Positions 12,304 to 19,519 of a DNA stretch of 38,631 nucleotides are shown piece after piece. Each line of letters starts with the position of its first letter. The first letter of the stretch is position 1. Position numbers and translations under genes: made by a program. The DNA lies in NCBI GenBank assembly GCA_946055775.1, contig CAMGHE010000004.1:1-38631 (forward strand). The letters run 5' to 3'. This DNA is from an uncultured Bacteroidales bacterium (GTDB taxonomy: Bacteria; Bacteroidota; Bacteroidia; Bacteroidales; Bacteroidaceae). The notes beneath the pieces were generated by a model that worked only from the letters and a program-made list of their open reading frames with translations, was not told where the DNA came from and did not search any database.

Positions 12304-12335
12304 TTTGGACAAACCCGGAAAAGCCCCTACATTTG
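12304..12335 (+). promoter_or_regulatory. Promoter of the trp operon
   Basis: TTTG at 12304-12307, a 20-base spacer and TACATTTG at 12328-12335 give a full consensus match. Transcription should start near 12342, about 30 bases before the leader peptide and about 300 bases before trpB. Confidence 0.8.
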
Positions 12336-12372
12336 CAAGCGATAAGTCAAGAAAAACTATCAAACAAACCGC

Positions 12373-12435
12373 ATGATTACTCTCCACCAGAATATCCGTC
12401 GTTGGCGTCGCTTACTACACATTGTCGTAAGTTGA
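12373..12435 (+). CDS. trp operon leader peptide (20 residues, one Trp)
   Basis: A short reading frame, MITLHQNIRRWRRLLHIVVS, starts 37 bases after the -7 element and stops at TGA 12433-12435. It contains a single Trp codon (TGG 12403-12405) flanked on both sides by two Arg codons. The last four codons and stop include 12423-12434, which is perfectly complementary to 12512-12523 in the downstream hairpin. A ribosome waiting at the Trp codon would leave this segment free, and one that reaches the stop would cover it. The position, Trp codon and pairing make it a probable attenuator peptide. Translation has not been shown, and there is no Shine-Dalgarno sequence, as elsewhere in the window. Confidence 0.72.
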   Translation: MITLHQNIRRWRRLLHIVVS

Positions 12436-12532
12436 AACGTCGCGCACCTATCCAAAATATCCGAAGATAGTCCTCAGAACAAGATAAGACCCATACCGAG
12501 GCGGCCCGTCACAACTTACGACAGGCCGCCTC
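12423..12532 (+). promoter_or_regulatory. trp transcription attenuator (antiterminator pairing plus terminator hairpin)
   Basis: The terminator hairpin pairs 12498-12506 with 12524-12532 (GAGGCGGCC/GGCCGCCTC) and, beyond one mismatch, 12508-12510 with 12520-12522. Its loop and upper right arm (12512-12523) are perfectly complementary over 12 bases to 12423-12434, at the end of the leader peptide frame. The two pairings compete. A third, weaker pairing (12411-12415 CTTAC with 12427-12431 GTAAG) could hold the antiterminator strand when no ribosome is present. This is the 1:2, 2:3, 3:4 logic of classical attenuators. Only a short TCTCTC run follows the stem, so termination may be weak or need a factor. 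Confidence 0.68.
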
Positions 12533-12647
12533 TCTCATACCCCGGCGGCAACGCCCGCGGCAGGCAACCGGCCTGTGCAACCGCCCCCACACTTTCCACA
12601 CAGCAAACCACAGTTTCCCCCCACACACTTAGCCACACACAAAAGCC

Positions 12648-13850
12648 ATGACCCACACCGCCTCTCCCTTTGAAGTAGATCGCAATGGTTACTTCGGCCG
12701 CTTCGGCGGCGCCTTCATCCCCGAGATTCTCCAGCCCTGCGTCAAGGCGCTGGCCGACAACTACCGCCGCATCATCGACAGCGACGACTTCCGTCAGGAG
12801 TATGACGCCCTGCTGCGCGACTACGTGGGCCGTCCCTCGCCCCTCTACCTGTCGCCGTCGCTGAGCGCCGAGGCCGGCTGCCGCGTCTATCTGAAGCGCG
12901 AAGACCTGAACCACACCGGTGCACACAAGATAAACAACGCCATAGGCCAGATACTCCTGGCCCGCCGCATGGGCCGCACGCGCATCGTCGCCGAGACGGG
13001 CGCCGGACAGCACGGCGTGGCCACGGCCACGGTATGTGCCCTGATGCACATGCCCTGCACGGTATATATGGGTGCCACCGACGTGGCCCGCCAGCGCCCC
13101 AACGTGGAGAAGATGCGCCTGCTGGGCGCCACCGTCGTGCCCGTAGAGAGCGGCAACCGCACGCTCAAGGACGCCTGCAACGAGGCCATTCGCGACTGGT
13201 GCTGCCACCCCGAAGACACCTACTACCTCATCGGTTCGACGATGGGCCCGCACCCCTACCCCGACCTCGTGGCACGCATGCAGAGCGTCATCAGTCGCGA
13301 GATACGCGCCCAGTTGCTGGACAAGGAGGGACGCGAGGAGCCCGACTATCTCGTGGCCTGCATCGGCGGCGGCAGCAATGCGGCGGGTACCATCTTCCAC
13401 TTCTTAAACAGCAAGCAGGTGCAGATTGTTCTGGCCGAGGCCGGCGGCATGGGGGCCGACACGCCGCAGACGGCGGCCACGCTGACGGTGGGCACCGAAG
13501 GCGTGCTGCACGGCTCGCGCACCCTGGTGATGCAGGATGGCGACGGCCAGGTCATCGAACCCTATTCCATCTCGGCCGGCCTGGACTATCCGGGCATCGG
13601 ACCGCTGCACGCCCATCTGGCGCAGACGGGACGCGCCCGCGCCCTGGCCATCACCGACGACGAGGCGCTCCGCGCGGCCTACAGCCTAAACCGCGCCGAG
13701 GGCATACTGCCCGCCCTGGAGTCGGCCCACGCCCTGGCAGCGCTGAAGAAACTGACGCTAAAGCCCACCGACGTGGTGGTGGTCACGCTCTCCGGACGCG
13801 GCGACAAGGACATCGACACCTATCTGGCCCACGCTGCCGAATATGCCTAA
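12648..13850 (+). CDS. trpB: Tryptophan synthase beta chain
   Basis: The 400-residue PLP enzyme joins indole with L-serine to give L-tryptophan, in complex with TrpA. The cofactor lysine is Lys94 in the motif HTGAHKINN, the catalytic glutamate is in AETGAGQHG (residues 115-123), and the phosphate-binding glycines are in CIGGGSNAAG near residue 240. The length fits TrpB1, the partner of TrpA. It is the first gene of trpBEGDCFA, about 115 bases after the attenuator hairpin, in a C/A-rich leader. It should therefore be controlled by the leader at 12373-12532. Confidence 0.97.
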   Translation: MTHTASPFEVDRNGYFGRFGGAFIPEILQPCVKALADNYRRIIDSDDFRQEYDALLRDYVGRPSPLYLSPSLSAEAGCRVYLKREDLNHTGAHKINNAIGQILLARRMGRTRIVAETGAGQHGVATATVCALMHMPCTVYMGATDVARQRPNVEKMRLLGATVVPVESGNRTLKDACNEAIRDWCCHPEDTYYLIGSTMGPHPYPDLVARMQSVISREIRAQLLDKEGREEPDYLVACIGGGSNAAGTIFHFLNSKQVQIVLAEAGGMGADTPQTAATLTVGTEGVLHGSRTLVMQDGDGQVIEPYSISAGLDYPGIGPLHAHLAQTGRARALAITDDEALRAAYSLNRAEGILPALESAHALAALKKLTLKPTDVVVVTLSGRGDKDIDTYLAHAAEYA

Positions 13851-19363: not shown

Positions 19364-19418
19364 CCCGCCGCCGCTCCACACAGGAGCAAGACCGCCCAAA
19401 GTTGGGCGAAAGAAAAAC

Positions 19419-19456
19419 ACAACATGGGCGACCGCGAAAACGGTCGCCCATGTTGT
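19419..19456. terminator. Bidirectional terminator between trpA and the DUF4369 gene
   Basis: A perfect 16-bp stem (19419-19434 with 19441-19456) has a 6-base loop. On the minus strand it is followed by a T-rich run (GTGTTTTTCTTT), so it is strongest for the convergent minus-strand gene. A second small hairpin of about 6 bp lies at 19393-19408. Confidence 0.8.
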
Positions 19457-19519
19457 ATATCAGGCCTTTTGAAAGTTCGAATGCGCGAGGCCCTCCCTGT
19501 AGACCCCAGGAGGCGGGGC

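Follow-up and report, generated by a model that had tools for sequence, protein, structure and literature searches.

A probable ribosome-mediated trp attenuator with one Trp codon and no U tract, homologous to the Bacteroid-trp leader RNA

In a 38,631-nucleotide (nt) stretch of DNA from an uncultured Bacteroidales bacterium (hereafter the window), the region upstream of the trp operon probably encodes a ribosome-mediated transcription attenuator homologous to the Bacteroid-trp leader RNA, a reading that rests on sequence comparison and to which we assign a probability of about 0.8. The original prediction had proposed a 1:2, 2:3, 3:4 attenuation scheme for this leader, and comparison supports it well: related genomes carry corresponding leaders, the three helices show covariation, and the leader is recovered by a model from which the window was left out.

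The leader precedes seven genes of tryptophan biosynthesis on the forward strand, beginning with trpB (12648–13850) and continuing through trpE, trpG, trpD, trpC, trpF and trpA to 19363. Against NCBIfam, trpB, trpD, trpA and a trpG/pabA subfamily scored above their cut-offs, and trpE, trpC and trpF were best matches below theirs. A putative promoter at 12304–12335, on the same strand, consists of TTTG (12304–12307), a 20-nt spacer and TACATTTG (12328–12335), and by its sequence fits what we take to be the −33/−7 form of Bacteroidetes promoters, in agreement with the promoter first predicted there. The arrangement TTTG...TAnnTTTG likewise stands upstream of several relatives' leaders (seen by eye, uncounted), and a plain sigma-70 scan of the region gave a 9/12 site.

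Direct reading of 12373–12435 on the forward strand bore out the predicted 20-codon frame (MITLHQNIRRWRRLLHIVVS, ending at the TGA of 12433–12435) with its single TGG at 12403–12405, and the frame occupies the same place as the WW and WWW leaders of relatives. Downstream of the TGG, segment 1 (CTTACTACA, 12411–12419, forward strand) forms the 5′ side of a predicted anti-antiterminator hairpin, 1:2, in which 12411–12415 pair with 12427–12431; this weaker third pairing of the original prediction is not only present but longer in the predicted fold, where 12417–12419 also pair with 12423–12425. Segment 2, the antiterminator (TTGTCGTAAGTTG, 12422–12434, forward strand), extends over the final codons and the stop of the frame and pairs with 12512–12524. 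The claimed perfect complementarity over 12 bases is real: 12423–12434 (TGTCGTAAGTTG) and 12512–12523 are exact reverse complements, an added G·U brings the pairing to 13, and none of 1,000 dinucleotide shuffles of 12343–12560 gave at least 12 Watson–Crick pairs between leader and downstream sequence (best shuffle, 10). Segments 3:4 form the predicted GC-rich, terminator-like hairpin (12498–12532, forward strand), which folding confirmed at −22.8 kcal/mol with a 9-bp stem, a C·A mismatch, 3 bp and a 9-nt loop. The loop and the top of the 3′ arm (12512–12524) are the antiterminator target, which comprises eight loop and five 3′-arm nucleotides and none of the 5′ arm; the lower 9-bp stem and the 12-bp pairing could in principle coexist as a pseudoknot. 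As a whole, the 199-nt leader (12342–12540) is more stable than 198 of 200 shuffled versions (z = −2.49), but its first part alone (12373–12480) has no excess stability (z = 0.23), 113 of 200 shuffles being equally stable or more so.

From this anatomy we infer a mechanism of stalling, of termination at the U-less hairpin, of blockage by loop capture and of response to tryptophan. With ample Trp-tRNA, the ribosome would pass the TGG at 12403 and reach the stop at 12433, covering 12422–12434; the hairpin at 12498–12532 would then form and transcription would end before trpB. With scarce Trp-tRNA, the ribosome would halt at 12403 and cover segment 1 (12411–12419), leaving 12422–12434 free to seize the hairpin loop and closing pairs as they emerge and so to prevent folding of the hairpin, and RNA polymerase would continue into trpBEGDCFA.

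The comparison draws on relatives whose nearest named members by TrpB are a Bacteroidales metagenome-assembled genome (MAG; 82%) and Prevotellamassilia timonensis (80%). A TrpB-like match was found in 191 of 201 genomes of the family (in some, only a distant paralogue) and in 41 of 58 genomes of the genus. From 132 trpB-upstream regions, including some repeats of one another, we obtained 100 segments that share the design of a short frame with Trp codons, a GTCGTRAG-like antiterminator and a hairpin carrying its complement; 90 were found automatically, two were re-set by hand (L124 and L133) and eight were added by hand (L003, L020, L045, L071, L120, L122, L138 and L139), and dropping six near-duplicates left 94 leaders. 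The 32 excluded regions comprise four false automatic calls (L056, L061, L076 and L103), two with a visible WWW leader that were left out (L064 and L067) and 26, some at a contig edge, for which no leader was accepted from either the automatic search or a pattern search of the final 490 bases for two closely spaced Trp codons. Two to four Trp codons occur in 92 of the 94 leaders and one in the window and L131, a share that may be too low because the two-Trp pattern would miss one-Trp leaders. The single Trp codon, flagged as an oddity at the outset, is a real trait of the lineage; both it and the absent U tract recur in the near-identical genome L119. Between window and L119 there are no changes in the 160 nt of 12373–12532 or in the 39 nt of the promoter, compared with two in the preceding 30 nt, two plus 14 indel columns in the following 115 nt and eight in the 1,203 nt of trpB; the unchanged 160 nt are weak evidence of constraint because L119 is so close to the window. 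The divergent leaders L130 and L131, also upstream of trpB, have a split or single Trp (YWRWQ and YWRLQ) and no GTCGTAAG, and their antiterminator CGCTTG matches CAAGCG, which lies within the terminator loop or next to it.

Alignment of the leaders upstream of trpB in relatives, the check proposed with the original prediction, revealed covariation in all three helices. RNAalifold, applied without a supplied structure to a MAFFT alignment of 93 leaders from which the window was excluded, predicted a 4-bp core of 1:2 and a 12-bp terminator; for each of the 16 predicted pairs, including all 12 of the family terminator stem, one or more sequences had changed on both sides, and one pair of the 1:2 helix is C–G in 49 and U–A in 39 of the 93 leaders. 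Together, 1:2 and the terminator were paired in 89.7% of alignment cells versus 76.2% after shuffling, with a covariation score of 0.515 versus 0.250 that none of 500 shuffles attained. For the antiterminator pairing 2:3, the corresponding values were 91.3% versus 87.2% and 0.322 versus 0.253 (0 of 500 shuffles), with slid controls at 31–45% paired and 0.026–0.108; selection of most loci for at least seven complementary bases between leader and hairpin inflates the paired percentage. Two-sided changes occurred in six of eight antiterminator pairs; 21 of the 500 shuffles reached this number. Conservation is poor for two of the eight pairs in 1:2, as columns 16–37 and 17–36 are unpaired in 50 and 39 of 93 leaders, respectively, and some pair counts are lowered by alignment rows that look locally shifted (for example, L006). 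A lack of conservation and of compensatory changes had been named in advance as counting against the prediction; what we found is a leader that recurs and helices that covary.

A covariance model of the same 93 leaders, again without the window and with 1:2 plus the terminator as its structure (R1), gave a full match at 12403–12544 on the forward strand (59.5 bits, E = 9.7 × 10−15), which was the top match both in the window and in the whole genome searched. The next match in the window, at 19409–19508 (26.9 bits), and another at 172–213 were rejected as leaders, being other hairpins by their place and for want of a leader part. The former, a strong hairpin, sits in the gap that separates trpA from a convergent ORF; on the minus strand GTTTTTCTTT comes after it. 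It is likely a terminator and indicates that hairpins with a U tract exist in this genome. Across the genus, R1 matched at E ≤ 0.001 in 29 of 58 genomes, with scores of at least 55 bits in 23 of them and below 34 in the remaining six. Among the weak matches, that in G208 lies at leader L139; at L172, L173, L174 and L177 the sequence inspected held no Trp leader, and for L175, L176 and L178, loci cut by contig ends, the inspection may have been misplaced.

The Bacteroid-trp leader RNA is an entry in Table 1 of Weinberg et al. 2010 (PMC2864571) and is held in Rfam, where RF01692 bears the title 'Bacteroidete tryptophan peptide leader RNA'; PMC6414381 compares it with the E. coli leader. The window shares with this class a position directly upstream of trp genes, a leader ORF with a Trp codon, and a homologous structured part comprising hairpin 1:2 and the terminator arm; the Rfam alignment of one member holds the antiterminator segment GUCGUAAG, and R1, which recovers the window, was built partly from leaders that RF01692 hits. 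By position, such hits coincide with the aligned leaders L004, L006, L009, L011, L024 and L028 above the cut-off and L005 and L018 below it, and across the family RF01692 was found in 75 of 151 genomes at E ≤ 1 and in 29 of 151 over the cut-off. By contrast, the window has one Trp codon and no U tract and goes unscored by the Rfam model: it falls below the gathering score (49 bits) and is unlisted even at E ≤ 10, its own genome has no hit, and the sister leaders L120, L121 and L002 gave no match at E ≤ 5. An Rfam search of the window region returned no relevant family, its matches to miRNA, snoRNA and lincRNA families lying far below cut-off. The nested structure in Rfam includes the leader frame, 1:2 and the beginning of the terminator but not the antiterminator pairing, and its outer hairpin part, which involves the codons before Trp, was not recognizable as such in the window's predicted folds. 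Because it is homologous to the class yet below the curated score, we regard the window leader, by its sequence, as a diverged homologue of this known ribosome-dependent class, which extends beyond the current Rfam model, as the misses in the window genome and the tested sister leaders indicate. The observation is sound, but a known class accounts for most of it; what stays of interest is the one-Trp, U-less variant and the geometry of loop capture. In the portions of PMC2864571, PMC7366714, PMC9723704, PMC6414381 and PMC4833913 covered here and in search listings, we found neither this antiterminator geometry nor a one-Trp Bacteroidales leader, which is not a claim of absence from print.

It was the pairing with the terminator loop that had originally been singled out as peculiar. 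In the window the pairing is as described, but it is the family rule: among 84 automatically resolved leaders, window included, the antiterminator partner lies mostly in the loop and 3′ arm in 80, and in L068, L107, L108 and L109 half or more of it lies in the terminator 5′ arm. The enterobacterial trp attenuator (Rfam Trp_leader) has tandem Trp codons, Trp followed by Arg, and an antiterminator that uses the terminator 5′ arm. The window resembles it in a leader peptide with Trp then Arg, three mutually exclusive helices and a terminator before the first structural gene, and differs in its capture of loop and upper 3′ arm rather than 5′ arm, in having trpB first, in its single TGG in place of tandem Trp codons and in its missing U tract. 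We tentatively suggest, as a possibility that we consider doubtful, that antiterminators throughout the family mostly capture the terminator loop and closing pairs, blocking nucleation rather than competing for the 5′ arm, and that the window is an extreme of this design, with a 13-bp capture, one sensor codon and a U-less terminator that may need Rho or another form of RNA release. The natural series of WWW, WW and single-W leaders, with or without a U tract, bears on how many sensor codons and how strong a terminator an attenuator needs, and on whether capture of the terminator loop suffices for antitermination.

Both the single Trp codon and the lack of a U tract would be expected to weaken the switch, and the latter oddity is as real as the former. 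The tail after the hairpin reads TCTCATACCCCG, in which the longest T run is 1, alone among the 94 leaders; of the two marks of an intrinsic terminator, the window has the GC-rich hairpin and lacks the U tract. A consensus scan found no terminator on the forward strand of the window, as expected without a U tract. The sister leader L120, from the closest distinct relative in which a leader was found (85% TrpB identity), has WW and GTTTTTC after its hairpin where the window has RW and TCTCATAC, so that the single Trp and the lost U tract appear as changes in the window's lineage. They might mark a decaying attenuator that terminates poorly and leaves trp expression largely unregulated, and the hairpin ranks only 74th of 94 in stability. 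We consider decay unlikely, however: the antiterminator pairing is the longest by automatic search (13 with G·U versus 7–10 in the others; 11 by eye in the hand-added L120) and ranks 6th of 94 by crude duplex energy, the hairpin stem is intact and the form is retained in the near-identical L119. Moreover, U-poor hairpins at gene ends are common in the window's genome (60% GC), where 26 of 39 strong ones in 439 kb sampled have T runs of at most 3, and nine of at most 1; in a sister genome (45% GC, 109 kb sampled) the former applies to five of eight. The gene ends come from a simple script, and these hairpins are putative terminators. Given their frequency, the absent U tract may be ordinary for this genome and not a sign of decay.

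A U-less hairpin might alternatively act by pausing RNA polymerase for Rho, a non-exclusive variant of attenuation in which Rho loads on the stretch between hairpin and trpB at 12578–12647 on the forward strand, whose 70 nt are rich in C (34) and poor in G (5). At 0.41, its C-minus-G value exceeds that of every other leader among the 82 measured (median 0.065) and is rare in the genome, being matched by 88 of 174,866 70-nt windows in 439 kb and by 3 of 124 5′ untranslated regions (5′ UTRs; the window's own possibly included). The stretch is a possible Rho loading site, but possibly it merely keeps the 5′ UTR unstructured in a GC-rich genome; it lies 3′ of the hairpin, giving leader translation no evident control over Rho there, and T runs do follow the hairpin in sister leaders, L120 among them. 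We hold a role for Rho to be improbable. A further variant compatible with attenuation, and still less probable, is a sensor of arginine as well as tryptophan: the codons CGT CGT TGG CGT CGC at 12397–12411 place four Arg codons around the single Trp codon, and a stall at any of them might also free the antiterminator, but Arg follows the last Trp in 70 of the 94 leaders. Our estimates for the Rho and arginine variants overlap with that for ribosome-mediated attenuation, of which they are versions.

The RRWRR context had also raised the option of a nascent-peptide sensor, in which peptide and tryptophan, rather than codon starvation, stall the ribosome as in TnaC. Arg after Trp, being so frequent, is no special feature of the window, and RRWRR itself counts against the sensor in that, among the leaders listed with peptides, it occurs exclusively in the window and L119. 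The single Trp in a short basic peptide speaks for such a sensor, and one Trp in a short leader peptide is a trait shared with the tna leader, but TnaC induces a catabolic operon on excess tryptophan, whereas the window's genes are biosynthetic and follow a three-helix attenuator. The proposed check of peptide conservation went against the sensor, as the peptide beyond the Trp is not kept: up to the stop, the sequence reads RRLLLPKS in L120, RRLQLK in L121, RCLQLSVVS in L002 and RRLLHIVVS in the window. The antiterminator starts 21 nt after the TGG in the window and 23 nt after it in L120 and is thus read in different frames; among 87 leaders located by a motif pattern the three frames are split 65, 13 and 9. 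Because the post-Trp sequence and the frame differ between species while the RNA pairings stay, such a sensor is the least credible of the alternatives, and codon-dependent stalling in a ribosome-mediated attenuator remains our preferred reading. In its favour, too, the distance from the last TGG to the antiterminator is 20–26 nt in the 87 of 94 leaders so located, and 23 nt in 60 of the 87.

Several relatives differ in the surroundings of the leader. L002, L124 and L164 have a stretch in common, GCCATAGTTGATTATGAT, within the antiterminator–terminator spacer, which otherwise varies. L003 (G128:C231) has an imperfect terminator, and between its leader and trpB lie about 300 additional nt that may be an insertion. 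At L150 (G213:C5), L156 (G232:C58) and L162 (G209:C40), a Trp leader stands about 280–320 nt before a distant TrpB paralogue with 33% identity to the window's TrpB; no close TrpB was found in these three genomes of the genus, where the leader is thus associated with another gene for the tryptophan synthase beta chain.
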